Under the pieces are notes generated by a model. That model saw only the letters and a list, made by a program, of their open reading frames with translations. It had not been told where the DNA came from and made no database searches. A program made the position numbers and the translations under genes. This document shows positions 13,460-64,000 of a DNA stretch of 64,000 nt, piece by piece. This stretch comes from Lachnospiraceae bacterium A4 (GTDB lineage Bacteria; Bacillota; Clostridia; Lachnospirales; Lachnospiraceae): positions 353,269 to 417,268 of the forward strand of contig KE159560.1 in assembly GCA_000403215.2 (NCBI GenBank). The letters run 5' to 3'. Position 1 is the stretch's first letter. Each line of letters starts with the position of its first letter.

Positions 13460-13696
13460 CTAGCCTACAACAGCAATTACATTTCCATCTTTCAAAATGC
13501 AGGCAACAGCCTTCCCTTCCCCTATAAGTTCTGCGCTACTACTGAGAATATTCTTACCTGCATTATCTGGTATTTCCAGTAAGACCTTATATTCCCATTT
13601 ATAAGTGCCATTGAGATGCTTAATAAATATCTGCTCCAATTCCTTTATGCTTATTTCCTTTGCTGGCAGCCAGGAAAGCACATTTAAAACTATCAT
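13460..13696 (-). CDS. hypothetical small protein of cluster I
   Basis: 78 residues, beginning MIVLNVLSWLPAK and ending in a beta-rich tail (KNILSSSAELIGEGKAVACIL). The start at 13696 is supported by AAGGA 8 nt upstream. It is the last gene of cluster I and lies directly after an R1 element. No family was recognised. Confidence 0.5.
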   Translation of the reverse strand: MIVLNVLSWLPAKEISIKELEQIFIKHLNGTYKWEYKVLLEIPDNAGKNILSSSAELIGEGKAVACILKDGNVIAVVG

Positions 13697-13720
13697 CCTA
13701 TCATTCCTTACCCATATATT

Positions 13721-13796
13721 TCCCCGATTCCCCAATCTGCCGAAAAGCCGGGGAGGCCTGTCCTGCCTTGTTAGGCTGTGGCATCGGAGCTATGCC
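13721..13796 (-). repeat. R1 element (copy a)
   Basis: Minus strand: CTCCGATGCC ... CCGGC-TTTT-CGG ... ATTGGGG. Its outer stem uses G-U pairs where other copies have CCCCAAT/ATTGGGG. It starts 15 nt after the stop of the gene ending at 13811 and lies just before the gene starting at 13696. Confidence 0.6.
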
Positions 13797-13810
13797 GTCC
13801 GAAAGACCAA

Positions 13811-14248
13811 CTAACAATTTATATTTTCTTTTTCGCAGTCTTTCAAGAAAAATCGTAATGACATAACTGTAACCGCAACTTTGTATTTTATATCTTCTGA
13901 CACTTTCCTGGGTGGATTTGATAACATCCTCTCAATATTCTCTACCTCTACCCCTGCCATTTTCGCCACTGCCCGTTTAGACAGACCATGATAGGAAACA
14001 AGCACTTTCAAGAATGCGCATAACTTTAAGTCTTTATCCTCCACAGCACTAAGATAAAGGAACGTAATCTTATTAAAGATGTTGAAACGGTATATAGAAT
14101 CTTCTGGCAAAAAGCCAATATCTCCCTCCGACAGTTTCCTTATCTGCTCCACGGACAACTGCAAATATTTAGAAAGTGTATCCATACTGAACTCGTATAT
14201 ATCGAGAAGTTCTTTCAGTTGATCTGCCACATTATCTCTTTGATTCAT
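13811..14248 (-). CDS. helix-turn-helix protein of cluster I
   Basis: 145 residues, helical. The N-terminal part contains SMDTLSKYLQLSVEQIRKLSEG and the middle SKRAVAKMAGVEVENIERML; both look like helix-turn-helix units. The ATG follows AGAGGT. It could be a regulator of the surrounding paralogue cluster. It sits between two R1 elements, downstream of the FDAKA-ending gene. No exact family was recognised. Confidence 0.6.
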   Translation of the reverse strand: MNQRDNVADQLKELLDIYEFSMDTLSKYLQLSVEQIRKLSEGDIGFLPEDSIYRFNIFNKITFLYLSAVEDKDLKLCAFLKVLVSYHGLSKRAVAKMAGVEVENIERMLSNPPRKVSEDIKYKVAVTVMSLRFFLKDCEKENINC

Positions 14249-14298
14249 ATCATTTTACCTCTTAATTTTATTTGATACCTACCATTCATCAAGCTTCT

Positions 14299-14365
14299 CC
14301 CTAACCCGCCGGAACGCCGGGAATGCCTGCCCTGCCGTGTCGGACTATGGCTTATTGGGGATAAG
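14299..14365 (-). repeat. R1 element (copy b)
   Basis: Minus strand: ATCCCCAATAAGCCATAG ... CCGGCG-TT-CCGG ... GTTAGGGA. The outer stem is kept by compensating T-A and G-U pairs. It starts about 23 nt after the stop of the gene ending at 14388 and precedes the helix-turn-helix gene. Confidence 0.65.
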
Positions 14366-14387
14366 AAACCGCAGAATTCATTTCCTG

Positions 14388-14993
14388 CTATGCTTTTGCG
14401 TCAAAACTATACTGCGGATTTTCCACATTAACCGCTTCTTCACCCGCCAGCGGAATGCCCCTCTTTGCGTTTCCCCATGCCTCGTTATAAATCATGCACG
14501 TTTCCGTCTGTCTGGCAGCCTCCGCATTGGTGGTATACATCGTCCACCCATTATTGGAATAAGTCGCTACCATTTCTCCGCTATTATCGTAAAACTCTAT
14601 GTAATCGCTGTTGCCCGATGGCAGTTTCTGATATTTCACTTTCCCTTCCAGCAGCGTTGCCACAAAGTCTATCGGCTTAAGCACATTCTGCCTGTTCCCC
14701 GAAACGGTTTTCAGGCCGGAAGAGATGATCCCCTTTCTGTCTGGGGACACTTCCGATGTGTAGCTTTTCATCAGCCTGTTAAAACCTTCGGATTTGTTCT
14801 GGAACTGCCCTTTTGCAAAATCCTCATATGCCTGTTCCCGAATCTGCTTCCGGTATTCCTCATCACTGATGCCGCTTTTCTTTTTGGAGAAAACATATTT
14901 ATCATTAAAGTCGGGCAGATGGATACCGCCTATGCTTCCTGTTCCTAGAAAATATCTGTTCTGCAATGAAACATTGGACGAACTGACCTGCAT
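14388..14993 (-). CDS. cluster I paralogue ending in FDAKA
   Basis: 201 residues, soluble, with no signal peptide. It has a glycine-rich N-terminus (TGSIGGIHLPDFNDKY), a charged helical region (DEEYRKQIREQAYEDFAKGQ), a beta-rich part (KLPSGNSDYIEFYD, MVATYSNNGWTMYTT) and the C-terminal motif SFDAKA. A nearly identical protein is encoded at 58075-58680, implying recent duplication or strong constraint. The ATG has AGGAGGG 7 nt upstream. The function is unknown. Confidence 0.75.
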   Translation of the reverse strand: MQVSSSNVSLQNRYFLGTGSIGGIHLPDFNDKYVFSKKKSGISDEEYRKQIREQAYEDFAKGQFQNKSEGFNRLMKSYTSEVSPDRKGIISSGLKTVSGNRQNVLKPIDFVATLLEGKVKYQKLPSGNSDYIEFYDNSGEMVATYSNNGWTMYTTNAEAARQTETCMIYNEAWGNAKRGIPLAGEEAVNVENPQYSFDAKA

Positions 14994-15018: not shown

Positions 15019-15516
15019 TTATAACTGCTCCAATTTCTCCAAAAACGCCCTGTAAAATTCTCCCTCTTTGATGCGGGCCTGCTGGACCTCTATGCTCCTG
15101 GGCGTATATACCCTTGGATGCTCCAAATCGTACAGTGCCTCTTTCGTTGCCTGGATTGCAGATTCCACTGTGCTTCCAAGAATGTCAAAATTCTCCGTTT
15201 CACCCTTAAGCTGTTTATTAAGCCGATGCACCATCATCTGCGATATGTGGCTCATCATTCCGTTGCCCCGGATTCCCATGCCATTCGCATTTACTTCTTT
15301 CGCCGCCTCCATCCACGCATCTTTCACTTCCTGCGGGGCGCCCCGACCGGCCATCTCAAAGGCTTTCTCGTCCTGGTCGGCTGCTCTGCCCTGCGCCGCC
15401 TTTTCTTCCACCGTTTCCATAAATCCCACCGTTCCGGGTTCCACACTTCTTTCCATCTTCCTTGCCGTATATCCTGTCAGCGAATATCCCGCTGTCCCTA
15501 TTCCATTTATGCTCAT
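15019..15516 (-). CDS. cluster I NGIG paralogue
   Basis: About 165 residues, starting MSINGIGTAGYSLTGY. It is mostly helical and ends EFYRAFLEKLEQL. It is a paralogue of the product of 31103-31528: both share the order EV..AW, a histidine region, LG[SD]SV, LE.P and a final FY..FLE.L. The start at 15516 (GGAGG upstream) is preferred to a TTG 6 nt earlier. No enzymatic motif is seen. Confidence 0.7.
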   Translation of the reverse strand: MSINGIGTAGYSLTGYTARKMERSVEPGTVGFMETVEEKAAQGRAADQDEKAFEMAGRGAPQEVKDAWMEAAKEVNANGMGIRGNGMMSHISQMMVHRLNKQLKGETENFDILGSTVESAIQATKEALYDLEHPRVYTPRSIEVQQARIKEGEFYRAFLEKLEQL

Positions 15517-15545
15517 CTCCAAATGTCCTCCATTATTTTTTATTG

Positions 15546-15595
15546 TAGCCCCTCTGTCAGTCAGACCATATCTGTTCTTGCACAGCTACCAGTAT
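15546..15595 (-). repeat. R2 leader element, degenerate
   Basis: Retains only the 3' hairpin part (on the minus strand, CTGACTGACAGAGGGGCTAC) upstream of the NGIG gene at 15516. The GGACTTA hairpin is not recognisable. Confidence 0.4.
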
Positions 15596-15616: not shown

Positions 15617-16852
15617 CTAAGCCTCCGTTGAAATATTCAACATTTCATCCGATACTGTATCCATTCCGGTATCATCAGATGGCATATTATTATCGGTATC
15701 ATGCTCTGAATTTTCATTTGGTGCTTCTGTCGGCTTGGAAATTTCCAAACTCATTGTAGTTTCCATTCCGCCAATACTCATTGTCATTACAAGCACCCTT
15801 GAACCATCTGGCTTAACAATAATATCTGTCTTTGATTCAGATTCCTGTTTATCTGCCTGCTCCAATTCCTCATCTGATAAGATTCTTTCAAATTCCAGTC
15901 CTCTTTCTTCAAAATATTTCTCCCACTTTGAATATTCCTTGATGTCTTTCGCTTCTATATACCCCTCCGCCATTGCATTCATAATTTCCATATACATATG
16001 CGTTGCCCCTATTGGATACATGACAGCCCAGCTCTTGGATGGATTGGCATCATCCATATAGTTCATCCCATTACAGGTAATCATCATGATTCCATCTTCT
16101 GTCCTGACAGCCTGACCTGCTACTTCGGCCTGTGCAAATCCCATTGCCACACTTTCTGATTTTATAAGGTTAGGATACTTTTCCTTATACATATCCGCTA
16201 GTTCCCGCAATTTCCCCATCTGCTGCTCATCGCTGACCATGAGCCATGAACCGCCGCCTTCGTTCCCTTTGATTTTCAGGCACTCTATTCCTGTAAACGC
16301 ATTCACCTCTATCGTGTATTTTTCATTTAAGGATGATGTAGGAATACTGTCTGCATTATCGACATTTAAAAACTGTGCCAATGTCTCCATAAGCTCACTG
16401 CCAGCGGGCACGACATCCATCAGCCCTCCCCTTGGGTCAGTCGCCACAATATAATTTTTACCCGAATTGCCATCTGTTTGTACCGATGTATTATTGGGGT
16501 CAAACTCAAATGATTTATCAAGTTTCTTATCATATATACGCCAATATCCAGATATCTCATCTGAAGGTTCAATTAAATACCGCTCACTCCCTACTTTTTC
16601 AACTGGCTGCTTTGTTTCTGCCTTAAGATTATTTGTATGAAATCTTGAACCCATACTGCCCATTATGGAATATGCATCATATGCAGAAAACCTTTCTCCT
16701 GCTTTTGAATCAATGAAATTTTTACCCAAACCCTCTCTCACCATATCTGCATCTGCCATCCTGCCTGCAAAGCCCGTTCCCAAACCATTCCTCTGTGCCT
16801 TTCCCATTTCACGCCATGCGGGAAAACCCACCCCTATTCCATTTACGCTCAT
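15617..16852 (-). CDS. cluster I NGIG paralogue, large
   Basis: 411 residues, starting MSVNGIGVGFPAWREMGKA. A beta-rich middle (SGYWRIYDKKLDKSFEFDPN, then KNYIVATDPRGGL) is followed by helices. The C-terminal tail is acidic and low-complexity. There are no membrane segments or signal peptide. The ATG has GGAGG 9 nt upstream. It resembles proteins I recall as DUF6033-like, unverified. The function is unknown. Confidence 0.7.
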   Translation of the reverse strand: MSVNGIGVGFPAWREMGKAQRNGLGTGFAGRMADADMVREGLGKNFIDSKAGERFSAYDAYSIMGSMGSRFHTNNLKAETKQPVEKVGSERYLIEPSDEISGYWRIYDKKLDKSFEFDPNNTSVQTDGNSGKNYIVATDPRGGLMDVVPAGSELMETLAQFLNVDNADSIPTSSLNEKYTIEVNAFTGIECLKIKGNEGGGSWLMVSDEQQMGKLRELADMYKEKYPNLIKSESVAMGFAQAEVAGQAVRTEDGIMMITCNGMNYMDDANPSKSWAVMYPIGATHMYMEIMNAMAEGYIEAKDIKEYSKWEKYFEERGLEFERILSDEELEQADKQESESKTDIIVKPDGSRVLVMTMSIGGMETTMSLEISKPTEAPNENSEHDTDNNMPSDDTGMDTVSDEMLNISTEA

Positions 16853-16884
16853 TTTTCAAATCCTCCATTGTCATCAATTATTTT

Positions 16885-16915
16885 ATAGCAGCCCCTCTGT
16901 CGTTCAGAGCCGCAT
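16885..16915 (-). repeat. R2 leader element, 3' half
   Basis: The hairpin with loop TGAACGACAGA lies about 30 nt upstream of the 16852 start. The 5' half is replaced by the remnant of a 36102-like gene. Confidence 0.45.
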
Positions 16916-17037
16916 CCTTTCCTTCCGCAGCTTTCTGCACCTCCTCCACAAAATTCCCTGTGCCTGCCACCCTTCTGCTACTGTTTGTGTAGGCATACGG
17001 ATTAACCCCCAATGCCGCTTACATTACCGATGCTCAT
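16905..17037 (-). pseudogene. N-terminal remnant of a 36102-like gene
   Basis: ATG at 17037. The sequence matches the first ~45 codons of the gene starting at 36102 (MSIGNVSG, then NPYAYTNSSRR and EEVQKAAEGKDA). An extra G in a GGGGG run shifts the frame after about 10 codons. The rest of the gene is missing. Confidence 0.8.
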
Positions 17038-17210
17038 ACCTGTCTCCTTTCCTGTAACATCACCGTTACACTGAACTCATTTTTCTTTATCTTGATATCT
17101 ACGTCCCCCATATATTCTTGCGCTTCCCTCTTTACATTGGAAAGCCCGAACCCGTGCATGGAACCTTTCTTTCCGAAAGGCTCTTTTTCTTTTGTAATAG
17201 GCTCTCGGAA
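17034..17210 (-). pseudogene. C-terminal remnant of an AgrC-like histidine kinase
   Basis: About 58 codons matching the end of the kinase at 36099-37526: GKKGSMHG.GLSNVK, then YMGDVDIKIKKNEFSV and MLQERRQV. Its stop overlaps the ATG of the 36102-like remnant exactly as in cluster II. It shows that cluster I once had the same kinase-paralogue junction. Confidence 0.8.
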
Positions 17211-17225
17211 TCATGAGCCTATATT

Positions 17226-17275
17226 AGTCGGTCAGAGCCGCGCCCGCTCCCTCGAATAAGTCCGAGCGGTTCATT
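17226..17275 (-). repeat. R2 leader element without a following gene
   Basis: Minus strand: CCGCTCGGACTTATTCGAGG-GAGCGG, then GCGGCTCTGACCGACTAATA. The first hairpin is intact. It now precedes only the kinase/36102-like remnant. Confidence 0.6.
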
Positions 17276-17340: not shown

Positions 17341-17348
17341 ACATCTCT

Positions 17349-17953
17349 TTATGCCTTTATGTCAAAACTGCCCCCTGTGGGTGACGATGTGCCGGATACC
17401 GCCGCAACAATATTCTGTGTAATGCTTTTCACATCCGTGCCAGTGGCAGACACCGTGAACGTACCTTCCATCCTCTCTTTTCTTTCTGCCCGCCGTTCCG
17501 CTGCCTTTTCTTCCGCTGCCTTTTTCTCCTTGCGCCTCTCGGCAGCCTTCTTCTCTTTAGCCTTCCGTTCCGCATTCTCCCTGGCTATCTTCCCATCGGG
17601 GTCATTTGTGCTGCCACTCATCATGGAAATATTACCATTATCATCAATCTTGTATGTAGCATATGTCACTACTGGGCTCCCCGGAGCCATTTTCACAGAG
17701 TTACAAAGTGATTTAACGCTATCAGGAATAGCCGCCAGATTTTCTTCCAGATACTTTGCTTTTTCCGGGTCGTTCATACATTTCTTCAGGAAAACTCCCG
17801 ATACGGATACCGTTGTCGGAACGCCCTGCATGGAGGTTGTTCCCGTATTCATATAGCTGTACTTACCTTGCAGGTATTTGGTATAGTCATTGACACAGTA
17901 TTTGTGTAGCCTTTCCCATAATCGCTGTAATTGTTTGTAATCTCCATTGACAC
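17349..17953 (-). pseudogene. cluster I FDIKA paralogue, frameshifted near the N-terminus
   Basis: The ribosome binding site AAGGAGG leads to GTG at 17953 and the peptide MEITNNYSDYGKGYTNT. This matches the start of the paralogue at 61152. The rest (NDYTKYLQGKYSYMN onward) is in another frame, so about one nucleotide is missing near 17890-17900. The remainder has a long Lys/Glu/Arg coiled coil and ends VSATGTDVKSITQN ... SFDIKA, almost the same as the end of the 61635 gene. Confidence 0.7.
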
Positions 17954-17983
17954 AATTCTCATCCTCCTTCAAAAAATCTTACC

Positions 17984-18040
17984 TGCGGCCCCTCTGTCAT
18001 TCAGGGCCGCCCATGCCCCCTTGCGGTAAGTCCGGGCATG
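17984..18040 (-). repeat. R2 leader element
   Basis: Minus strand: GCCCGGACTTACCGCAAGG-GGGC, then GCGGCCC-TGAATGACAGA-GGGGCCGC. Both hairpins are strong. It lies upstream of the 17953 start. Confidence 0.7.
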
Positions 18041-18047
18041 ATCTTCC

Positions 18048-18799
18048 TTACTTCAAAATGCCCGCCGCCTCATATGCGGCAACCGAAACCGCCTTTTTGG
18101 TTATGCTGTCCTTATAATATCTCTCGTCCGCTTCCTGCTCCATCAATTTGCGTTTTAGGGCGCTTTCTTCTGCCAGCCTCTCATACTCAACGTGTTTTTC
18201 TTCCCTTGCTTTGCGGGCTTCTATGAATTCTGCCGATGACACTGACATCTTTTCACTTGTCACGCAGGCGTGCGCGATATCCCCATTTTCATCCAATGCA
18301 ATCAGATAACCTTTCCGGGGATTTGGATTCATAATATCCTGCTCTGCAATAAACCCCTCAACCTTTGCCATGACACTCTTTGCCAGTTCCGGGTCATTCT
18401 TCATCTTTTCTTCCAGTTCCGGCGGAACAACAATAGCTTTCTTGCCTATAGTGGAATTGATTTTGCCTGCACTTTAGGGTCAAGCATGGCAGGCTCCGCA
18501 CCCGATGGTTTCCAGTCCAAAACCGAAGCATCCGCATTATTGCTGAAATACTTATCCCACGGATAATCATTCCTTCCCCATAAGGAGCCGTCAATCTTGG
18601 ATGTATCCATCACGTTGTAGTATGCTCCCGGAAACCTCGCCTGCCACATACCCTTAAAACTTACATTCTCTGTTTTCCCTGCCGCTTTCGTAGCCGCAAG
18701 TTCCGCAAAACTCACCTTATTTGTATTTGTTTTCTGTGCCTTGTCTGCATACTGGTATGCGCCAGCAGCCAAAGCACCGTTTACTCCTAAAATACTCAT
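18048..18799 (-). pseudogene. cluster I paralogue (MSILGVNGALA), frameshifted
   Basis: The start at 18799 has GGAGAGG upstream and the N-terminus MSILGVNGALAAGAYQY. Reading runs to LDPKVQAK, where one A seems lost from a short A run (plus-strand T run at 18461-18464). That creates a stop at 18446. The continuation INSTIGKKAIVVPPELEE onward is in the neighbouring frame and ends AAYEAAGILK at 18048. Repaired, it would be about 250 residues. Either a mutation or an assembly error explains it. Confidence 0.75.
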
Positions 18800-18851
18800 A
18801 ATCAATCCTCTCCTTCCTGCTGATTAACTTTTTACCATGACCGACAGCGTG

Positions 18852-31102: not shown

Positions 31103-31528
31103 TTACCCCAAAAACTCTAAGAATTTCTTGTAGAATATCAATTCCTGCCCTGCAAAATCCGGGTTTGCCGCCGGGGTCAGTGGGTTCTCCAGCCTATGTA
31201 TAATCTTTTCAACCATAGATTTTGCGGAACCAACGCTGTCACCCAAAAATGTGGAACTCAAACCCTGCTGTCCACTTTCAACGTGCAGAACCAAAGCCGT
31301 TGAGATGCGGTTCATTGGAAAAGGATTTACTCCCGTTTCCGCAAGCGCCTTATCCCATGCCTGCATCACTTCATCGGAGCTCTCCGGCCTGAAAGCATTT
31401 GTTTCTTTCTTTGTTGCAGCTTTGTTTATCGCATCAGCAAATTTCCCTCCTGCCACATTTCTTTCTGTCCTTCTCGTTTCATACCCTGCCACCGGGTATC
31501 CTGCTGCTCCTATTCCATTAACATTCAT
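31103..31528 (-). CDS. cluster II NGIG paralogue
   Basis: About 141 residues, starting MNVNGIGAAGYPVAGYETRR and ending LIFYKKFLEFLG. It is a paralogue of the cluster I gene 15019-15516. Helical, with no signal peptide. The ATG at 31528 has GGAGG about 10 nt upstream and an R2 leader in front. It lies apart from the rest of cluster II because the flavodoxin/HxlR pair intervenes. Confidence 0.75.
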   Translation of the reverse strand: MNVNGIGAAGYPVAGYETRRTERNVAGGKFADAINKAATKKETNAFRPESSDEVMQAWDKALAETGVNPFPMNRISTALVLHVESGQQGLSSTFLGDSVGSAKSMVEKIIHRLENPLTPAANPDFAGQELIFYKKFLEFLG

Positions 31529-31557
31529 TTTCTTTAATCCTCCATTATTTTTAGTAT

Positions 31558-31615
31558 TGCGGCTCATCTGTCATTCAGAGCCATCTCTGCTCTCTTGATG
31601 TAAGTCCGAGCAGTC
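31558..31615 (-). repeat. R2 leader element
   Basis: Minus strand: TGCTCGGACTTACATCAAGA-GAGCA, then GGCTC-TGAATGACAGAT-GAGCC, about 15 nt before the GGAGG of the NGIG gene at 31528. Confidence 0.75.
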
Positions 31616-31682
31616 CATTGTTTCCAATATCCTAACTCCTCTTGTCAAATTCCATACTGACCTTCACCTCTTCTCGCTGCTC

Positions 31683-33168: not shown

Positions 33169-33705
33169 TCATGATTTGCTTTTACAGAAAGTCAGGATGT
33201 CATTGATCCATTTGCCATACCGCAGATACCCGTCCCAATTCCCAAGTGTTTTCATATCGTTCATAAGCTCGTGCGCCATTGCCATATAGTCTGCTTTTTC
33301 ATGGTAGGAAGTACCACTCATTTTATCCTTCAATATCGACATGGTCATGAAATTGCTGTCTGATTTATTCCCGGTATGTGCGTTTAACGCAAGCATCTCC
33401 GTATAAGAACAGCTACTCGGATTTACCTTGCTCACATCCACTATCTGCTCATACTCTTTTCCGTTTTTGTCAGTGCCCTTCACAAGATAAACCGGATTAT
33501 CCTCTGAATAATCATCCGCCCTGTATACATTTGCACTCTCCCCCGTCTTTACATGATGGATAGAAAATAATGCGTCCGGGTCAATATGTACCACATTTCC
33601 TGTTGCTTTCACATTCGCCCCGAAGTCACCCTTCGTACTGCTTTCTGCTTTTCTTGCTCCCTGCCATGCCGGATACCCTACTGTTCCTATTCCATTAACA
33701 TTCAT
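33169..33705 (-). CDS. cluster II NGIG paralogue
   Basis: 178 residues, starting MNVNGIGTVGYPAWQGARKA. A beta-rich middle has NPVYLVKGTDKNGKEYEQIV. The C-terminus is helical (DYMAMAHELMNDMKTLGN). The ATG at 33705 follows GGAGG, with an R2 leader upstream. No signal peptide or known domain. Confidence 0.75.
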   Translation of the reverse strand: MNVNGIGTVGYPAWQGARKAESSTKGDFGANVKATGNVVHIDPDALFSIHHVKTGESANVYRADDYSEDNPVYLVKGTDKNGKEYEQIVDVSKVNPSSCSYTEMLALNAHTGNKSDSNFMTMSILKDKMSGTSYHEKADYMAMAHELMNDMKTLGNWDGYLRYGKWINDILTFCKSKS

Positions 33706-33735
33706 CTCTAAATCTCCTCCATTGTTTTTAGTATT

Positions 33736-33795
33736 ACGGCTCATCTGTCATTCAGAGCCATCTCTGCTCTCTCATAATAAGTCCGAGCAGTTCAT
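33736..33795 (-). repeat. R2 leader element
   Basis: Minus strand: CTGCTCGGACTTATTATGAGA-GAGCAG, then GGCTC-TGAATGACAGAT-GAGCC; upstream of the 33705 start. Confidence 0.75.
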
Positions 33796-33937: not shown

Positions 33938-34516
33938 TTATATCTGTATATCCAGCCCTTTACTGCCTTTAGCGTACAAGGCATTTACACTGTCCTGATA
34001 GATAGCATCACCTGCAAAAATCTCATCCAGTATCTCATGGGAAATTGGCTTTCCGGCTGTCCATGTTGGGTCTTTTTCCTTTACAGCCTGTGTTACCCTT
34101 CCAGAAATTTCTAAATGGAGCTGGCTCAACGTCCACGGTGCAGCACGGCGGGTACTTAAATCTAATGACTTCACATAGGAATGAATCTTGTCATAATATG
34201 CATCCGTCTCAGCAGTATTATCACCAGACATTCCACCATACTTATAAAACCCTTTTTTAACATCTTCATAAACGTGCTGCTTCATTTCTTCTGATACGTT
34301 GACAATTCGTTTCCAATCTGTTCTTCCTGTAATTCCCATGCCCTCTACGCCATAAGAATTTTTGAAGTGTCCGGAACGCAAGTCATCAATGGTATTGCCA
34401 CAATAGTTGCCTTTCGATGCCCCATTGCCGAAAAGCATATTCGTATTTGCTTTGCCACCGTTCATCCTTGAAAAGAGCTGCCAGATTCCCTGACTGTTAT
34501 TTCCTATACGCATCAT
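33938..34516 (-). CDS. cluster II paralogue (DUF3879-like?)
   Basis: About 192 residues. It begins MMRIGNNSQGIWQLFSRMNG, followed by a glycine-rich stretch; the rest is mainly helical, ending GSKGLDIQI. The C-terminal LDIQI resembles the FDIKA-type endings of other members. GGGAGG lies 5 nt before the ATG. The function is unknown. Confidence 0.7.
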   Translation of the reverse strand: MMRIGNNSQGIWQLFSRMNGGKANTNMLFGNGASKGNYCGNTIDDLRSGHFKNSYGVEGMGITGRTDWKRIVNVSEEMKQHVYEDVKKGFYKYGGMSGDNTAETDAYYDKIHSYVKSLDLSTRRAAPWTLSQLHLEISGRVTQAVKEKDPTWTAGKPISHEILDEIFAGDAIYQDSVNALYAKGSKGLDIQI

Positions 34517-35154: not shown

Positions 35155-35185
35155 AAATATCATCCTCCTTGATAAAAATATTTCA

Positions 35186-35243
35186 ACGGCGGCTCCTCTG
35201 TCATTCGGAGCCGCCCATGCCCCCTTACGGTAAGTCCGGGCAT
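35186..35243 (-). repeat. R2 leader element
   Basis: Minus strand: GCCCGGACTTACCGTAAGG-GGGC, then GGCGGCTCC-GAATGACAGA-GGAGCCGCC. Compared with 17984-18040 the second stem differs by paired changes (CCC/GGG versus CTCC/GGAG), supporting a real RNA helix. Confidence 0.78.
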
Positions 35244-35274
35244 ATCCTGCTTTACTTCAAAATGCCCGGAATGC

Positions 35275-56370: not shown

Positions 56371-56382
56371 GGAACCACATAC

Positions 56383-57927
56383 TTATAAAACTTTCCTGAA
56401 CTGATATCTATACATATCAGAATACATATTGCCGGAAGACTGTGGTGTAAACCGGTCATCCAATGCGCCCATATCAACCGCAAAACCGCTGTCCGCCACG
56501 GAAAACGCCCCATCCTTGAACTGGAACTGTGAAGTGAAATCGGGAATCCCCAAGTCGCCGCTTATCCTGATCTTCCCTATGATATCCACCAGCGCATCCT
56601 TCATCCGTTCTATCTTGGCATTGTCCTTCGTCTTGTTGATCAGATCAGCCGCCTTGTCCGGCAGTCCTCCGATCTTCCCGTCAGGCGTCAGATAAAGATT
56701 TTCTATCGAAATGTCCTCCCCCGTAACCCCTTTCAGGTAGCGCCGGACTTCCTGTATGTCCATGGCATACCGGTATGTGCCACCGGACAGGTCTCCCACA
56801 CTGTCTGCAATCCCTATGTAATACTGGTACATCCGGTCACCGTACTTCTCATCTATCAGCTTCTGCACCTGTTCCCGGACGGCTCTGTCCTCTATCCCAT
56901 CCACGGACACATCCCCGCTGCTCCCAATCCTTACGCGCATACCCTCTATGTCGTCACGGGAAATGCCCATCCCCTCCAAATCCTTAACGAAATCATCTGA
57001 AAAGCTGTTTTTCAGCTCCGCTTTATTCTGCGCCTTTTCCATGTCTTTCAGGTTGGCAAAAATCTTCACATACTCCAGTTCCGCATCATTTAAATCCTTC
57101 CCCTCCGCCATGTCCTGCAGCAGTTCATCCACGGTGCGCCCGCCCTTATACTTCTTTTCTTCCGGCAGGCTGTCAAACTGCTTCCGGTGGAGCTGCTCCA
57201 GCTCTTTTAAATAATTCTGCTCCGTCTCCCGCAGGACTGCATTATACTGGTCAAGATATTCCCGCCAGTTTTCATCCTTCCGGCTGTATGCGTTGTGGAG
57301 ATTCCCATATGCTTCCCTGACGGCGTCAGTCTTTTCATGCTCCTTATTTTCGGAAACATGGAAACTGATCCTGTAATAATCATCCGGGGAAACTTCCTCC
57401 CCGTTTCCGTTTTCTACCTTGAGGCAGTATTTATTGGTATTGATATCCCAATTGGGGACGGTCAGCTTCTTCCGCCCTTCCCCGTCCCACTCTGCCTTCC
57501 CCACCTGGTTGCCGTATTCGTCATACAGGGTAAGGTCGTAATCACAGCCCTCCGGCATATCAATGTAAGCTTCGACACCGAAATAATTCCGTTGGAAGTT
57601 CATAAATGGGATGGAAAAGTTATAGAAATCCACATCCTTGTCATCGCTGAGATTCCCTTTCAGGCTGCTGGTCTCGTCCTTGATCAGAAAATTCAAATCC
57701 AGGAATGTGCTGCCTTTGTCCTTATCGGAAACCTCATAAGTGGTATGCTGCCTGCGGTAAGTGTTATTGCTGCTGAGGGTGCAGGTGTCCTCCCGCAGCT
57801 CCATGTTCTTTCGCAGTCTCCCGTCAAAAAAAGCCTCTGTCTCTTTTCCAGTCATGAAGTATACCGGCTTGTTCCTGAAAGCCGCTCCATATGCGGAACC
57901 TGCATCATTTACTGAATTAACTCCCAT
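56383..57927 (-). CDS. cluster III large paralogue with PPC-like domain (DUF4885-like?)
   Basis: 514 residues, starting MGVNSVNDAGSAYGAAFRNK. Residues about 80-190 look like a beta-sandwich of the bacterial pre-peptidase C-terminal type (DVDFYNFSIPF, GCDYDLTLYDEYGNQVG, NTNKYCLKVENG, YYRISFHV). The C-terminal half is helical, with GISRDDIEGMRVRIGSSGDV. No signal peptide. GGAGG precedes the ATG at 57927. The function is unknown; the PPC-like fold suggests an extracellular role. Confidence 0.75.
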   Translation of the reverse strand: MGVNSVNDAGSAYGAAFRNKPVYFMTGKETEAFFDGRLRKNMELREDTCTLSSNNTYRRQHTTYEVSDKDKGSTFLDLNFLIKDETSSLKGNLSDDKDVDFYNFSIPFMNFQRNYFGVEAYIDMPEGCDYDLTLYDEYGNQVGKAEWDGEGRKKLTVPNWDINTNKYCLKVENGNGEEVSPDDYYRISFHVSENKEHEKTDAVREAYGNLHNAYSRKDENWREYLDQYNAVLRETEQNYLKELEQLHRKQFDSLPEEKKYKGGRTVDELLQDMAEGKDLNDAELEYVKIFANLKDMEKAQNKAELKNSFSDDFVKDLEGMGISRDDIEGMRVRIGSSGDVSVDGIEDRAVREQVQKLIDEKYGDRMYQYYIGIADSVGDLSGGTYRYAMDIQEVRRYLKGVTGEDISIENLYLTPDGKIGGLPDKAADLINKTKDNAKIERMKDALVDIIGKIRISGDLGIPDFTSQFQFKDGAFSVADSGFAVDMGALDDRFTPQSSGNMYSDMYRYQFRKVL

Positions 57928-57973
57928 TTCAAATCCTCCATTATTTTCAATATTACGGCTCACTGTCCGCACT

Positions 57974-58074: not shown

Positions 58075-58680
58075 CTATGCCTTTGCGTCAAAGCTATTCT
58101 GCGGATTTTCCACACCCACCGTTTCTTCGCCTGCCAGCGGAATGCCCCTCTTTGCATTTCCCCATGCCTCGTTATAGATCATGCACATTTCCGTCTGCCT
58201 GGCAGCCTCCGCATTGGTGGTGTACATCGTCCACCCATTATTGGAATAAGTCGCTACCATTTCCCCGTTCTTATCGTAAAACTCTATGTAATCGCTGTTT
58301 CCCGTTGGCAGTTTCTGGTATTTCACTTTCCCTTCCAGCAACGTCGCCACAAAGTCTATGGGCTTAAGCACATTCTGCCTGTTTTTGGAAACAGCTTTCA
58401 AACCGGAAGTGATAATCCCCTTTCTGTCCGGGGATACTTCCGATGTGTAGCTTTTCATCAGCCTGTTAAACCCTTCGGATTTGTTTTGGAACTGCCCTTT
58501 TGCAAAATCCTCATATGCCTGTTCCCGAATCTGCTTCCGGTATTCCTCATCACTGATGCTGCTTTTCTTTTTGGAGAAAACATATTTATCATTGAAGTCG
58601 GGCAGATGGATACCGCCTATGCTTCCTGTTCCTGAAAAATATCTGTTCTGTAATGAACCGTTGGACGAATTGACCTGCAT
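58075..58680 (-). CDS. cluster III paralogue ending in FDAKA
   Basis: 201 residues, nearly the same as the protein of 14388-14993: identical blocks TGSIGGIHLPDFNDKYVFSK, ASAGQFQNKS-like middle and NGWTMYTTNAEAARQTE; it ends NSFDAKA. GGAGAGGG precedes the ATG. The high identity between clusters contrasts with strong divergence of other members. Confidence 0.75.
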   Translation of the reverse strand: MQVNSSNGSLQNRYFSGTGSIGGIHLPDFNDKYVFSKKKSSISDEEYRKQIREQAYEDFAKGQFQNKSEGFNRLMKSYTSEVSPDRKGIITSGLKAVSKNRQNVLKPIDFVATLLEGKVKYQKLPTGNSDYIEFYDKNGEMVATYSNNGWTMYTTNAEAARQTEMCMIYNEAWGNAKRGIPLAGEETVGVENPQNSFDAKA

Positions 58681-58694: not shown

Positions 58695-59348
58695 CTATAT
58701 AATCCCGTCTAGAGCAGTTTCCGTCATCATATTCAATTCATAGACACTGGAAGCCTTCGCCATCTGCTGCTTACTGCTCCACGCCTTTGCCAGCCTGCTT
58801 CTCTCCTGCTCCGCCTTTACAGCCTTTTCATCCAAAAGTTCCTGCTGCTGTCTCTTAGCCTGCACCCGCTTTTTCAGATATTCTTCCAGCAGTTCCTTAT
58901 TCCTGTCTTTTTTCCCACTTGTTTTCTTAAAAAAGCTGTCCTGAGAACGTGCATAAAACTCCGAATCATTGTTAACAGACCATCCATCTGCCCTATAATC
59001 TTTGGCTGTGGCTCCTACCGTAATCACCAAAGAACAGTCTGGAGCCGGGGCGACAGAGCCAGTCATATCACGCCTGATTACAGACAACATTTGTTCCCTG
59101 TACTTTGGATCAGCTTTCATATTTTTAAATGCTTCCTCCGATATATTAACTGCTACATTTGCTATGGTTCTGTCCTGTGGTATCCTATCAAGTTCTGCGT
59201 AAAATTCCTTCTTGAAAGCTGCCATTTCTTCCGCTTCTGTTAATTCCCGCATACCGCCTGTTTCTTCCGTGCCGTTCATGTTCTTTTTGTTTTTCACTGA
59301 TGTCACATTGTTCTGATAATAATTTTGTCCTACTCCGCTAATGCTCAT
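58695..59348 (-). CDS. cluster III paralogue (MSISGVGQNYY type)
   Basis: 217 residues, starting MSISGVGQNYYQNNVTSVKN. Shared blocks with the 62407 protein: ELTEAEEMAAFKKEFYAELD-like, AVNISEEAFKNMK, and DSFFKKTSGKKDRNKELLEE. A long basic/acidic coiled coil (about 150-200) near the C-terminus. GGAGG lies upstream, with R2 in front. Confidence 0.75.
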   Translation of the reverse strand: MSISGVGQNYYQNNVTSVKNKKNMNGTEETGGMRELTEAEEMAAFKKEFYAELDRIPQDRTIANVAVNISEEAFKNMKADPKYREQMLSVIRRDMTGSVAPAPDCSLVITVGATAKDYRADGWSVNNDSEFYARSQDSFFKKTSGKKDRNKELLEEYLKKRVQAKRQQQELLDEKAVKAEQERSRLAKAWSSKQQMAKASSVYELNMMTETALDGII

Positions 59349-59376
59349 CTCTAAATGTCCTCCATTATTTTTTATT

Positions 59377-59435
59377 GCAACCCCTCAGTCGTTCAGAGCC
59401 GCCTCTGCTCTCTCATGATAAGTCTGAGCAGTTCA
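59377..59435 (-). repeat. R2 leader element
   Basis: Minus strand: CTGCTCAGACTTATCATGAGA-GAGCAG, then GGCTC-TGAACGACTGA-GGGGTT, before the 59348 start. The GGA of the first loop is AGA here. Confidence 0.65.
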
Positions 59436-59510: not shown

Positions 59511-59545
59511 CGGTTTCCCAATCTGCCAAAAAACCTACCCTTGCT
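59511..59545 (-). repeat. R1 relic
   Basis: Only TTTCCCAATCTGCC and a shortened following part remain of the R1 pattern. Confidence 0.35.
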
Positions 59546-59588: not shown

Positions 59589-60356
59589 CTACTTGAAAAG
59601 TTTTTGCGTATTCGCCACAAAACTTGTATGCTCATTCAGTATATCCGCAAATATGCCTATCGCTGTTCCTTTTTTGTAACCAAAACTCTTGAATGCCGCC
59701 AAAAACTTTTCTCTTGTCTGCTCCATTATTGATACTGCCGAATCCCGATAATCTGTGTCGAAAAGCTGAATCCTGTCTTGTATTTTTCCTTCATTTTGGG
59801 GATTGCTTCTATTGAAAAACCATGAACTGTCCGGATTTTCAAAGGCTTTGTTTGTCTGTTGACAGGTAATATATCCTTCCAGATTTGCCAGACGCATCTT
59901 AAAAGCCTCATCCAGCCCCGCCAAATCTTCTTCAAGCGTAAGAGACCTTTTCCCCGTAAGTTCATAGGAAACTTCACGGTCTCCATTTTCATGTTCTTTG
60001 ACGATTTCATTATAACGGGCCTCATATGTATCCATGATTGATTTCATTACATCTTCCACATTATAGTTTCCGTCTTTTAATGTCTGGCTGCTGATTCCCC
60101 TCATTGCCGTATAATGTTCCCATGCTACCTCATTTGTATTTTGTATTGTCATCTCCCTTGCATTGACATAATCCGAATCAGTCTCAAATTTGTTTACCAT
60201 TTCCCGCAGCATATTTCGTCCCTCATCAGAAATGGAGAGATTAACTGGCTGCTGCGTCACTTTTCTGCCTGCATTTGTTTCAGATACCTTTTCCTGCACA
60301 TGATTTGCAACAGCCCCCATATAACAATAATTACTTCCAATTCCATTCACACTCAT
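59589..60356 (-). CDS. cluster III NGIG paralogue
   Basis: 255 residues, starting MSVNGIGSNYCYMGAVANHV. Mostly helical (ISDEGRNMLREMVNKFETDS), with NLEGYITCQQTNKAFENPDS and a C-terminal GIFADILNEHTSFVAN. The ATG at 60356 follows GGAGG, with R2 upstream. No known domain. Confidence 0.72.
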   Translation of the reverse strand: MSVNGIGSNYCYMGAVANHVQEKVSETNAGRKVTQQPVNLSISDEGRNMLREMVNKFETDSDYVNAREMTIQNTNEVAWEHYTAMRGISSQTLKDGNYNVEDVMKSIMDTYEARYNEIVKEHENGDREVSYELTGKRSLTLEEDLAGLDEAFKMRLANLEGYITCQQTNKAFENPDSSWFFNRSNPQNEGKIQDRIQLFDTDYRDSAVSIMEQTREKFLAAFKSFGYKKGTAIGIFADILNEHTSFVANTQKLFK

Positions 60357-60381
60357 TTTTAAATATCCTCCATCTTTGATA

Positions 60382-60437
60382 CAGCGGCCCATCTGTCGGT
60401 CAGAGCCACATCCGCTCCCTTATAAAGTCCGAGCAGT
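60382..60437 (-). repeat. R2 leader element
   Basis: Minus strand: CTGCTCGGACTT-TATAAGG-GAGCGG, then GTGGCTC-TGACCGACAGAT-GGGCCGC, upstream of the 60356 start. The first stem is kept although the loop is shorter. Confidence 0.7.
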
Positions 60438-60489
60438 TACTCTCGACAAAGGCGCGTGGTTTTTGCGCCCCTGCCGGAAAAAATAATAT

Positions 60490-61152
60490 TTACGCCTTTA
60501 AATCGAAACCTGTTACTGTCAGTGCTGTAGACATGGCACTGTTACCCATACCGATTTTACTTATCAAATTCTCTGTAACTTTTCCCATATCTGTTCCCAT
60601 TACAGTAATATCATACTGCCTGCCGTCTTTCTTTTCTCCCAGCTTTTCCTGCTCGGCCTTCTTTTCCTTATTCTTTTCAAGCAGCTTTTCCCATTCCTCT
60701 TTACGCTCTTTGTTTCTAGCCCTCGCCTCCTCAACCATTTTCTTGGATTCCTCTGTGCCAGGGTCAGCCTCAAAAACACCTACGCACTTTGTCGTAATAC
60801 AGTCCTCGCTGTCTATGCTGATTTCCAGACTGACCAGCCTCGCCCCATTTTTAGCAGAATTTTCACATATCTTATTGATACAGTCCGGCATTTGGGAAAG
60901 CGTATTCTCTAGCCATTCAGCCGTTTTGGGATTGGATGCCGCCTTTGAAAGCAGGCTGGAATTGATTGACACGGAACTGTCCTTTGTCGGTGTCAGGCAG
61001 GCATACTTATTATTCAGATATTCTGAATATTCCCTCCTGCTCCCATATGTGCTTTTCTTCTCCGTTTCCTTTCTTGATGCCTTTGCCTGCATTTCTTTTT
61101 CTGCATTAGCCTGTTCCACATTACTATAATTGTTTGTGATTTCCATTGCCAT
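60490..61152 (-). CDS. cluster III paralogue ending in FDLKA
   Basis: 220 residues, starting MAMEITNNYSNVEQANAEKE. A core shared with the 61635 and 17349 proteins: YLNNKYACL, SVSINSSLLSKAASNPKTAE, WLENTLSQMP. A Lys/Glu coiled coil and the end MGTDMGKVTENL ... VTGFDLKA. AAGGAGG precedes the ATG at 61152. Confidence 0.75.
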   Translation of the reverse strand: MAMEITNNYSNVEQANAEKEMQAKASRKETEKKSTYGSRREYSEYLNNKYACLTPTKDSSVSINSSLLSKAASNPKTAEWLENTLSQMPDCINKICENSAKNGARLVSLEISIDSEDCITTKCVGVFEADPGTEESKKMVEEARARNKERKEEWEKLLEKNKEKKAEQEKLGEKKDGRQYDITVMGTDMGKVTENLISKIGMGNSAMSTALTVTGFDLKA

Positions 61153-61244: not shown

Positions 61245-61499
61245 TCAATCCGCACTCCCTTTATGCGGTTCCGCCGAAATGATCTCCCCCTGCACGTTGG
61301 ATTCATCCGAATCCCCGTCCAGCTCATCTTCGTCAAGCTGCGGCTCCACCGCTATCGGGTCATCATCATAAACCGCCGAGCCGCCATCCTCAATCTGATG
61401 CACGGCATCCGGGGCGGGCCTTCCCTGTGTGGTGCATCCGCTGATTGTGGGAATCATCATTGCCGTAATAAGTAATGCCGGTATTCTGCTGACACGCAT
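61245..61499 (-). CDS. small acidic lipoprotein in cluster III
   Basis: 84 residues. A signal peptide with lipobox TISGC (cysteine near 22) is followed by a very acidic, low-complexity chain (DEDELDGDSDESN). It is the only cluster member with an export signal. It is placed between two coiled-coil paralogues and has an R2-like leader. A possible surface anchor or chaperone; the role is unknown. Confidence 0.65.
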   Translation of the reverse strand: MRVSRIPALLITAMMIPTISGCTTQGRPAPDAVHQIEDGGSAVYDDDPIAVEPQLDEDELDGDSDESNVQGEIISAEPHKGSAD

Positions 61500-61529
61500 T
61501 TTTCATATCCTCCGATTTCCTTTTATGTA

Positions 61530-61582
61530 ACAGCCCTCTGTCGTTAGAGCCACATTCGCTCCCATGCAATATGCCTGAGCAA
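61530..61582 (-). repeat. R2 leader element, variant
   Basis: Minus strand: GCTCAGGCATATTGCATGG-GAGC, then GTGGCTC-TAACGACAGA-GGGCTG. The GGACTTA core is altered. It lies before the lipoprotein gene. Confidence 0.5.
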
Positions 61583-61628
61583 TCCGCAGGGGCAAAGTTT
61601 TATGCACCTCTGCGGAATTGGATGTAAG
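61583..61628 (-). repeat. R3 hairpin (copy 3)
   Basis: Minus strand: CATCCAATTCCGCAGAGGTGC, loop, GCCCCTGCGG. The middle base pair differs from the other copies as U-G or C-G type changes. It begins 7 nt after the stop of the gene ending at 61635. Confidence 0.55.
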
Positions 61629-61634
61629 GATTAT

Positions 61635-62294
61635 TTACGCCTTTATATCAAAACTTTCCCCTGTGGGTGACGATGTGCCGGATACCGCCGCAACAATATT
61701 CTGTGTAACGCTTTTCACATCCGTGCCAGTGACAGATACCTTGTATGTCCCTTCCATCTGCTCTTTTCTTTCTGTCCGCCGTTCTGCTGCCTTTTCTTCC
61801 TCCCGTCTTTTTGAGGCTTTTTCCTCCTGCGCCTTCTTTTCTTCCCTTCTCTCCTTAATCTTTTCTTCCAGTTCTTCCCTTGCTTTTTCCGTTCCCGGAT
61901 CAACTTCCACCTGAGTAACAACTTCTGTGGTCATACTGTCATATCCATTCATGGTAATATCACAGCTTATCATTTTTGCGCCACGCGCTGCCGCCGCTGA
62001 TTTTATATTATCAACTACTTTCGGAATCAAAGATAAATTGTATTCCAACCATTCAGATGTTTTTTCATCACTTGTAGCTTTCGCTAAAAGCGAACTGTTT
62101 ATATTTACTGAATAATCTTTACTTTTCATACATTCGTACTTTTCAGTAAGATAGGACAATTCATCCTTTGCCGTCTTTCTGGCTGCGGCCTCCTTTGCCG
62201 TACCCGCTTCCTCTGTTGCCTGCTTTTTGCCGTTTGCAGAATTTGTGTAACCTGCATAGGTATTTGTATAATCTGTTACTCCTAAAATTGCCAT
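61635..62294 (-). CDS. cluster III paralogue ending in FDIKA
   Basis: 219 residues, starting MAILGVTDYTNTYAGYTNSA. Core YLTEKYECM, SVNINSSLLAKATSDEKTSE, WLEYNLSLIP; a highly charged coiled coil (about 140-185); C-terminus VSVTGTDVKSVTQNIVAAVS ... ESFDIKA. AGGAGG lies upstream of the ATG at 62294. It resembles proteins I recall as DUF6033, unverified. Confidence 0.75.
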   Translation of the reverse strand: MAILGVTDYTNTYAGYTNSANGKKQATEEAGTAKEAAARKTAKDELSYLTEKYECMKSKDYSVNINSSLLAKATSDEKTSEWLEYNLSLIPKVVDNIKSAAAARGAKMISCDITMNGYDSMTTEVVTQVEVDPGTEKAREELEEKIKERREEKKAQEEKASKRREEEKAAERRTERKEQMEGTYKVSVTGTDVKSVTQNIVAAVSGTSSPTGESFDIKA

Positions 62295-62337
62295 AGTCTT
62301 TATCCTCCTGATTGATAAAATTTTAGTGCATATCGTG

Positions 62338-62396
62338 GCAGCGGCCCCTCTGTCATTCGGAGCCGCCCATGCCCCCTTGTGGTAAGTCCGGGCATG
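62338..62396 (-). repeat. R2 leader element
   Basis: Minus strand: GCCCGGACTTACCACAAGG-GGGC, then GGCGGCTCC-GAATGACAGA-GGGGCCGC, before the 62294 start. Confidence 0.75.
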
Positions 62397-62406
62397 ATGC
62401 CCTTCA

Positions 62407-63075
62407 TTAACCAAGCAGCGTATCTCCGCCTGCCACAGTTTCCGTCATGACATTTGCATCATAAGCATTGGATGCCGCCGCCATCTGCTGCTTACTGCTC
62501 CACGCCTTTGCCAGCCTGCTTCTTTCCCGCTTTGCCTTTGCAGTCTTTTCATCCAACAGCTCCTGCTGCTGTCTCTTTGCCTGCGCCCGCTTTTCCAGAT
62601 ATTCTTCCAGCAGTTCCTTATTCCTGTCTTTTTGTCCGCTTGTTTTCTTATAAAAACTATCCTGTGAACGCGCAAAAAACTCTGAATCATTGTTGGGGCC
62701 AGACCATGAATCTCCCCTATAATCTTTCTCGGTTGCTCCTACCGTTATAAGCAATGACGCTTTTAGCGGGGCAAAAGATGAAGTCAAATCACGCTGAAGC
62801 GCCGACATTATCTTTGCCCTATATTCCGGATCATCTTTCATATTTTTAAACGCTTCCTCTGATATATTGACCGCCAAATTGGTGATTGTTCTATTCTTTG
62901 GTATCCTCTCAAGTTCTGCGTAAAATTCCTTCTTGAAAGCTGCCATTTCCTCCGCTTCCGATAATTCCTTTGTGTTTCCCGTTTTCTCCAATGCAAATTT
63001 TTCTGTACTGTTTGCATTTTTTGTTGTTTCCACATTGTTCCGATAAAAATTCTGTCCTACTCCACTGATAGCCAT
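62407..63075 (-). CDS. cluster III paralogue (MAISGVGQNFY type), first after the kinase
   Basis: 222 residues, starting MAISGVGQNFYRNNVETTKN; a paralogue of the 58695 protein throughout, with the same coiled-coil tail. It starts 53 nt after the stop of the AgrC-like kinase, and no R2 element intervenes, so it is probably on the kinase transcript. Confidence 0.76.
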   Translation of the reverse strand: MAISGVGQNFYRNNVETTKNANSTEKFALEKTGNTKELSEAEEMAAFKKEFYAELERIPKNRTITNLAVNISEEAFKNMKDDPEYRAKIMSALQRDLTSSFAPLKASLLITVGATEKDYRGDSWSGPNNDSEFFARSQDSFYKKTSGQKDRNKELLEEYLEKRAQAKRQQQELLDEKTAKAKRERSRLAKAWSSKQQMAAASNAYDANVMTETVAGGDTLLG

Positions 63076-63128
63076 TTTTTAATCCTCCACTTTTATCTAT
63101 TTTCGAGTTTCATTTAATACACGGTCAT

Positions 63129-64000
63129 TTACTTACCTTCTCCCACCTCCCCCTGCTGAAGCATTACCGTTACATGGAACACATCCCCTTTCACTTTTAT
63201 GTTTACACCGCCGAAATACCTCTCTGCAATATCCCGCACGTTTTCAAGCCCTATACCATGCTCCGTAATGATTCCCGGCAGGATACTCTGTTTCGTTGTA
63301 GGAGGGAGCGAACTGCCTTTGCTTACAGGGACAACTCCGTCAAAGCTATTTTCTACACACAGTATCAAAAATTGCTTTTTCCGCTTTAATGAAAGGCGTA
63401 CAAATCCTTTACCTGTTTCCAGTTTTTCACAGGCTTCTATGGCATTATCCAAAAGGTTGTTCAGTATGATCCCCATATCAAACACGGGAATTTCCCCGCC
63501 ATACCGGAAATCTGCATCAAACCGGATTCCTGCCTTTTCCGCCCTGCGGCATTTGTCATTGATGATGACATCCGTTACTGCATTCCCCGTCACATACTTA
63601 TATTCCAGTTTCTGCATGGTTTCGTCCATCCGCCGTACATAATCTTCTATCTCCCCATACTCCCCGGCTCCTGCCAGTCCTTTGATATTCGCCATATGGT
63701 TCTTCATCTCGTGCCGCACCTTTCGGATGCTTCCATAGAAATTCTCCGCTTCCTCCAGACGCTTCTTCATGGCCTTGACCTGCTGTTCCTCCACGAAATG
63801 TTTCTGCCTCTCGGCAAGCAGGACACGGTATTTCTGCCAGAAATAAATCAATGCGGTTTCCCCTACGAAAATAAGCACTGCTATCATGGGAATCTTCCAA
63901 AGCAAATCTGGCTTCTCGTCAAACAACACAAAAAATCCTGTATCTATTTTTACAGTCAGCAGCCCATTTACCACTCCTGCAATCATACTCCCCACAAAAT
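63129..64000 (-). CDS. AgrC-like GHKL sensor histidine kinase (partial, runs off the window)
   Basis: The visible part has two hydrophobic segments, a coiled coil, the phosphoacceptor region RKVRHEMKNHMANIKGLAGA, and the GHKL domain (NNLLDNAIEACEK, GIGLENVRDIA). It is closely similar in its cytoplasmic half to the kinase at 36099. The N-terminal membrane part lies beyond 64000, where a LytTR regulator gene might also be found. Confidence 0.88.
   Translation of the reverse strand, partial: FVGSMIAGVVNGLLTVKIDTGFFVLFDEKPDLLWKIPMIAVLIFVGETALIYFWQKYRVLLAERQKHFVEEQQVKAMKKRLEEAENFYGSIRKVRHEMKNHMANIKGLAGAGEYGEIEDYVRRMDETMQKLEYKYVTGNAVTDVIINDKCRRAEKAGIRFDADFRYGGEIPVFDMGIILNNLLDNAIEACEKLETGKGFVRLSLKRKKQFLILCVENSFDGVVPVSKGSSLPPTTKQSILPGIITEHGIGLENVRDIAERYFGGVNIKVKGDVFHVTVMLQQGEVGEGK

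Follow-up and report, generated by a model that had tools for sequence, protein, structure and literature searches.

In Salmonella the hook protein FlgE is under post-transcriptional control and hook translation is tied to the stage of flagellar assembly; we know of no RNA from that organism homologous to the one described here. Agr quorum sensing (AgrC/AgrA) joins a GHKL sensor kinase to a LytTR response regulator, and to our knowledge genes such as those treated below are not among its targets. The present study concerns 64,000 nt (hereafter the window, from whose start all feature coordinates count) of contig KE159560.1, positions 353,269-417,268, from Lachnospiraceae bacterium A4 (GCA_000403215.2). 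The window carries three clusters of genes for DUF6033, DUF3879 and companion proteins (the family genes), with GHKL/LytTR sensors beside clusters II and III. Our firm finding is that a new structured leader RNA of flagellar rod/hook genes also heads many of these sensor-linked genes. The sharing of this RNA, the co-occurrence of the family with flagella and the linkage to sensors come directly out of the computation, and we think it probable that the clusters encode sets of accessory proteins that are under sensor control, have been drawn into the leader-RNA regulon of rod/hook genes (flgE, flgG) and are probably exported via the flagellar type III apparatus. Among described structured RNAs, the Termite-flg and flg-Rhizobiales motifs bear names that point to flagellar genes, in the accessible part of the source (PMC2864571); the present leaders differ in that no Rfam model matched them.

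The leader RNA is about 62 nt long and consists of a hairpin P1 with a conserved GGA bulge and a hairpin P2 with the loop GA-N-Y-GAC-A-GA, followed by the ribosome-binding site. In the P2 loop the GAC and the outer GA pairs are nearly invariant, and of the 48 aligned copies with a P1 bulge, 41 have GGA there. Nine of the 17 family genes are preceded by this RNA, which was absent from an earlier, sequence-only reading of the window. The 11 copies in the window are listed below with their scores under R1 and R2, successive models of the RNA, the latter built from 54 copies.

17979..18042, minus strand, leader RNA of I-1 (R1 82.4 bits; R2 71.3 bits)
17207..17272, minus strand, leader RNA before the remnant (R1 41.0 bits)
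16882..16933, minus strand, partial leader RNA of I-3, first hairpin degenerate (R1 34.5 bits)
15539..15595, minus strand, degenerate leader RNA of I-4 (R1 21.4 bits; R2 27.9 bits, E 0.011)
31553..31616, minus strand, leader RNA of II-6 (R1 75.5 bits)
33730..33793, minus strand, leader RNA of II-4 (R1 78.6 bits)
35183..35246, minus strand, leader RNA of II-2 (R1 82.7 bits)
59371..59434, minus strand, leader RNA of III-6 (R1 73.6 bits)
60378..60439, minus strand, leader RNA of III-5 (R1 68.4 bits)
61524..61585, minus strand, leader RNA of the 84-aa lipoprotein gene (R1 51.7 bits)
62335..62398, minus strand, leader RNA of III-2 (R1 80.8 bits)

Compensatory changes support the fold. Thirteen copies showed 21 double-change cells in the proposed pairs versus 7.7 after shuffling, and the 54-copy alignment used to build R2 showed 202 versus 66. 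In 57 flgE/flgG leaders from outside the R2 building set, but aligned to R2, 94.2% of the cells were paired and 290 held double changes, compared with 85.5 in shuffles. Rfam 15 gave no match to the leader at gathering score in the whole window, and lax scans, which covered 6.9 kb of the window and 24 flgE/flgG-type loci (E up to 10 on three loci), did not match it either.

In its own genome R1 located the RNA at 21 places. A search of the same 7 Mb with R2 (E<=1) gave 23, namely 17 family genes or pseudogenes, two lipoprotein genes, one remnant, the hook gene flgE, whose identity was confirmed by Pfam, and two places without a gene. The latter two copies (locus L048, 376-438 and 2256-2319) precede terminator-like hairpins, and the next 200 nt showed no gene. 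Of 29 loci of relatives with R1 matches, 13 have the RNA before flgE and 14 are family loci, 12 of these with a family-like open reading frame (ORF) directly 3'; L102 and L106 fit neither description. Genomes positive for R2 numbered 61/150 in the family and 51/245 in the class (both E<=0.01), and 51/299 in the phylum (E<=0.001). When the class and phylum loci were fetched, a FlgE/FlgG homologue was found to start 11-81 nt downstream of the RNA in 56 of 57 (worst E 1.3e-38), some of these genes having N-termini that suggest flgG more than flgE. At L260, the one exception, a terminator takes the place of the gene; attenuation, small RNAs and leftovers are candidate explanations for the geneless copies at L048 and L260.

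The association with the family genes was followed in a sensor survey of 78 loci, taken from one scan of genome contigs with our own ORF caller (phmmer, E 1e-4, 6-kb reach). All 116 R2 matches in these loci lie on the strand of the query gene; 106 precede an ORF, and 97 precede a member of one of our profile groups, lipoproteins included. Counted by distinct downstream ORF, 63 family and seven lipoprotein genes were found among 79.

A recount of the window upheld the layout given in the sequence-only reading: three minus-strand clusters with 17 genes or pseudogenes (five in cluster I, two of them broken, five in cluster II and seven in cluster III) and one remnant. The 4-nt overlap that it reported in cluster II (first gene start 36102, kinase stop 36099) and the 53-nt gap in cluster III between the kinase (63129) and the first gene (63075) are both correct, and the relic of the same junction in cluster I is indeed present, being 94-95% identical to the kinase/gene-1 junction of cluster II. 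The genes are as follows.

35275..36102, minus strand, II-1, 275 aa, DUF6033 group (PF19498 25.7 bits); 4-nt overlap with the kinase stop; lacks its own leader RNA
34531..35151, minus strand, II-2, 206 aa, DUF6033 (PF19498 125.7 bits)
33938..34516, minus strand, II-3, 192 aa, DUF3879 (PF12995 55.6 bits); no leader RNA of its own
33169..33705, minus strand, II-4, 178 aa, NGIG group by profile; FxxxPhi at residue 28
31103..31528, minus strand, II-6, 141 aa, NGIG group by profile; FxxxPhi at residue 30
62407..63075, minus strand, III-1, 222 aa, DUF6033 group by profile (PF19498 alone 10.3 bits, under the cut-off); first gene after the kinase
61635..62294, minus strand, III-2, 219 aa, DUF6033 (PF19498 34.2 bits)
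60490..61149, minus strand, III-4, 219 aa, DUF6033 (PF19498 30.8 bits); no R2 match of its own
59589..60356, minus strand, III-5, 255 aa, own profile group, NGIG start
58695..59348, minus strand, III-6, 217 aa, DUF6033 group by profile (PF19498 22.1 bits, under the cut-off)
58075..58680, minus strand, III-7, 201 aa, grouped with I-5; D1 repeat 92%
56383..57930, minus strand, III-8, 515 aa, own profile group
18051..18805, minus strand, I-0, broken into two frames; second piece DUF6033-like (PF19498 18.3 bits, pieces scanned separately)
17349..17972, minus strand, I-1, broken near its start; DUF6033 (PF19498 38.6 bits)
16881..17210, minus strand, remnant of a kinase/gene-1 junction, matching cluster II at 94-95% (repeats D8 and D20)
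15617..16852, minus strand, I-3, 411 aa, NGIG group by profile; FxxxPhi at residue 28
15019..15516, minus strand, I-4, 165 aa, NGIG group by profile; FxxxPhi at residue 32
14388..14993, minus strand, I-5, 201 aa, grouped with III-7 by profile
61245..61499, minus strand, small lipoprotein-like protein, 84 aa, lipobox-like N-terminus; own leader RNA; relatives also behind leader RNA

The view that all these proteins form one multi-paralogue family proved wrong. Iterated profiles over the ORFs of the collected loci give about six groups: DUF6033 (II-1, II-2, III-1, III-2, III-4, III-6), NGIG (I-3, I-4, II-4, II-6), I-5 with III-7, II-3, III-5 and III-8, with the 84-aa lipoprotein separate from them. 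Weak links between groups exist (e.g. II-4 to III-1 at 2.9e-12), perhaps by way of a common N-terminus. DUF6033 (PF19498, curated cut-off 25 bits) and DUF3879 (PF12995, 27 bits) are Pfam families of unknown function, and a whole-word search of one literature library found no paper naming either. II-1, II-2, III-2, III-4 and I-1 exceed the former cut-off and II-3 the latter; III-6 (22.1), the I-0 piece (18.3) and III-1 (10.3) fall under the DUF6033 cut-off and were joined by our own profiles, and the NGIG, I-5/III-7, III-5 and III-8 groups match neither. The start NGIG does occur in five window proteins, as had been noted. The common N-terminal signature proposed with it holds within the profile groups: its strict form (M-x-[IVM]-x-G-[IVM] near the start) was found in 37 of 136 non-redundant proteins gathered by the window profiles (14/72 DUF6033, 20/29 NGIG, 3/35 others) versus 2 of 732 control ORFs, and is thus above chance and far from universal. 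AlphaFold models have low confidence at residues 1-35 of III-1 and 1-40 of II-4, with confident domains after them. Relatives of III-1 are also encoded by three unannotated faecal 'Bacteriophage sp.' records (MT836421.1, MT838947.1, MT837814.1).

The sensors beside the clusters are the following.

36099..37526, minus strand, GHKL sensor kinase of cluster II (PF14501 5.4e-21)
37523..38227, minus strand, LytTR response regulator of cluster II (PF04397 3.4e-21, PF00072)
63129..63995, minus strand, C-terminal part of the GHKL kinase of cluster III (PF14501 2.2e-18); the rest lies outside the window (L053 1-807)

The two kinases are 42% identical over 283 residues. The LytTR regulator of cluster III follows its kinase outside the window (L053 804-1535), and 14-20 kb beyond cluster III comes a fourth cluster, again with a kinase and a regulator (L053, L054). 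The sequence-only reading had tied the clusters to such kinases and called for a genome survey; the GHKL/LytTR linkage does recur in other Lachnospiraceae, a relative of the window kinases being found within 6 kb in 45 of the 78 survey loci, and also at L116, L119-L123 and L125-L127. The kinase is, however, not the common denominator, as a BlaR1-type M56 relative takes its place in 19/78, an AgrB at one own-genome locus, and neither kinase nor M56 relative was found in 14/78, some of which end at contig edges. At that AgrB locus, L048, a DUF6033 gene lies downstream of the AgrB gene and a Cys-rich small ORF; a radical SAM protein and an S8 protease are encoded there too. This recalls Agr, from which the window differs in that its ORFs gave no AgrB match (phmmer with one AgrB query; AgrD was not searched by profile). 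At L048 (8785-17025) and L051 (5921-14854) the DUF6033-type genes have small Cys-rich ORFs as neighbours, along with genes for a radical SAM protein, an S8 protease and an ABC transporter; both resemble peptide natural-product loci, one behind AgrB and one behind BlaI/M56. At L045 (8457-11075) a DUF6033 gene lies immediately 3' of a sigma-70-type factor gene, with SpoIIAA/SpoIIAB-like genes by N-terminal look only. At L047 (C9 of the own genome) a LytTR/GHKL cluster with leader RNA adjoins a relaxase gene, which suggests spread on an integrative element.

The link with flagella was analysed in one sample of 150 family genomes, 82 with flhA and 68 without. The leader RNA was found in 60/82 versus 1/68 and DUF6033 in 45/82 versus 0/68 (hypergeometric 6.5e-16, kinship ignored), while all six DUF3879 genomes have flhA. 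On contigs that also carry flhA, 39 of 40 RNA matches lie on the flhA strand, 4-18 kb upstream and mostly at about 10 kb. In the genome G106 a single locus holds flagellin, a LytTR regulator, a GHKL kinase, family genes, fliS and, further on, an FlgEFG-type gene.

According to the accessible part of one report (PMC8983047), a non-polar N-terminus is required in early flagellar subunits, along with a gate recognition motif no fewer than ~26-30 residues downstream of it. Like the early (rod/hook) substrates FlgD, FlgE and FliK, the family proteins lack a Sec signal: a Sec-like stretch (a 12-residue window of mean hydropathy >= 2) occurs in 0/136 versus 148/732 controls, the lipoproteins being the exception, and DUF6033 (45/45) and DUF3879 (6/6) are confined to flhA-positive sample genomes. 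The FxxxPhi motif, scored at residues 18-52 and found at 36-41 in the own FlgE, FlgD-like and FliK-like proteins, is present in 17/29 NGIG proteins (shuffled mean 4.4, maximum 12), compared with 249/732 control ORFs (258 shuffled). The family differs in having no Pfam match to known substrates, and most of its groups are not enriched in FxxxPhi. Being clearly enriched in NGIG alone, the motif is good evidence for one group only. Export of the family is plausible, and the leader RNA held in common with flgE/flgG and the confinement of DUF6033 to flhA-positive sample genomes point to the flagellar apparatus.

We infer export and its mechanism as follows. The sensor would set transcription of the cluster, and the leader RNA, read by a factor or ligand that reports rod/hook assembly, would set translation, so that the family proteins may be made during the rod/hook phase of the flagellar export apparatus. 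Most of them would then pass through this apparatus and out of the cell in unfolded form; the short non-polar motif at the N-terminus, M-S-[IV]-x-G-[IV], would guide them, joined in the NGIG group by FxxxPhi near residue 30. The role of flagellar export cargo is the likeliest next step, which we rate as fairly probable, and not a result. Several observations weigh against this picture. On our reading of the searches, an R2 match lies directly upstream of just 8/18 own-genome DUF6033 genes; 13/45 DUF6033 genomes have no R2 match at E<=0.01 (32/45 have one), and DUF6033 is missing from 37/82 flagellate genomes. The same DUF6033-like locus appears in records titled Coprococcus comes and Blautia hansenii (L190, L191), from genera not known to be motile. 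FxxxPhi is mild in the DUF6033 group (17/72; shuffled mean 7.7, maximum 17) and not enriched in the remaining groups (8/35 versus 5.9 shuffled). Neither predicted model gave a fold match at E<=0.001, a crude pattern revealed no LytTR site in four regulator promoters, and two covariation measures for the 57 flgE/flgG leaders were not above shuffles (pairs with double change 196/500, further pair types 336/500). Finally, lipoprotein genes with Sec-type N-termini also carry the leader RNA, so the RNA by itself is no export address; because these lipoproteins share it, we read it as a control of timing or dosage instead.

A small-molecule ligand, CsrA and a stability element are candidate explanations of how the leader RNA acts. 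It might serve in processing or stability, raising the yield of a downstream segment in long operons, and have been copied before other highly expressed genes, in which case it would say nothing about flagellar function; its two strong hairpins, its position within operons ahead of the abundant hook gene, and the two own-genome copies and the L260 copy that precede terminator-like hairpins without a gene would suit such a role. A mere stabiliser would not need the strongly conserved letters of the P2 loop (GAC and the flanking GA nearly invariant), however, and the RNA is all but restricted to flhA-positive genomes in the family sample, and we regard this explanation as somewhat unlikely. In flagellin mRNA, control by CsrA is relieved by FliW, and CsrA could likewise bridge the P1 GGA and the ribosome-binding site of the leader until freed by FliW. 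The frequency of GGA in the P1 bulge (41/48 copies) and the distribution of CsrA (80/82 flhA-positive and no flhA-negative genomes of the sample) fit this proposal; against it, the GGA sits in an internal loop whose inner stem covaries and is absent from 7/48 copies, conservation is highest in the P2 loop, where there is no GGA, and two RNA-bearing flhA-positive genomes lack a CsrA match (G002 and G137, 94% and 81% complete). We consider it quite unlikely.

Other explanations concern the proteins. If they regulated flagellar assembly or motility from the cytosol or at the motor, kept inside the cell and used by the sensors to tune the flagellum, the shared leader RNA and the co-occurrence with flhA would need co-regulation only, the long charged helix that ends the DUF6033 models (residues 141-216 of III-1) would be apt for partner binding, and the lack of FxxxPhi enrichment in most groups would cause no difficulty. 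We hold this to be unlikely, as many size-variable, fast-changing copies behind private sensors would be unusual for assembly factors, the start motif and the N-termini modelled with low confidence (residues 1-35 and 1-40) are reminiscent of early export substrates, and Sec lipoproteins within the same sets suggest a surface role. The sequence-only reading itself, of kinase-controlled secreted factors unconnected with flagella, draws on the recurrent GHKL linkage; we disfavour it as very improbable in view of the leader RNA common to these genes and flgE in the same genome, the co-occurrence with flhA and the lack of Sec signals.

The clusters also contain or adjoin other elements. Two genes inside cluster II are not family members:

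31836-32489, minus strand, FMN-reductase gene (PF03358 1.1e-22), interrupting the cluster
32602-32961, plus strand, HxlR regulator gene (PF01638 1.3e-28), divergent from the FMN reductase

The ORF 13811-14248, considered as a further paralogue, was rejected, since it encodes an HTH_60 protein. The decayed cluster I is flanked by transposase genes of IS110 and DDE_5 type (18943-20034 and 12409-13176). A second interspersed intergenic repeat, ATTCCCC...GGGGAT, of about 71 nt, also lies inside clusters (13727-13797, 14296-14366, 31687-31757, 33073-33143, 56302-56372), with shorter copies at 57972-58016 and 59504-59535. A hairpin repeat CCGCAGAGGC...GCCTCTGCGG is conserved at the ends of I-1, II-3 and III-2 (17289-17352, 33886-33949, 61579-61642), and short-unit direct repeats like GTTTTGCCTGCGAGTATC occur in intergenic DNA at 41668-42081 and 50817-50984.

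A wider proposal, which we put forward tentatively as a possibility, is that an RNA absent from Rfam senses rod/hook assembly throughout the phylum, gates the translation of axial proteins and was copied in Lachnospiraceae onto sensor-armed gene sets, which would make the flagellar export apparatus a secretion system with interchangeable cargo triggered by peptides or wall damage. A conserved flgE/flgG leader RNA across Bacillota-type genomes would offer a handle on the timing of hook building. The present results are a first functional lead for DUF6033, DUF3879 and their companions, placing them in a regulon and pointing to a probable route of export and to sensors by which they may be switched on. 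If the cargo is exported via flagella, gut Lachnospiraceae would possess an unrecognised, sensor-controlled flagellar secretome.

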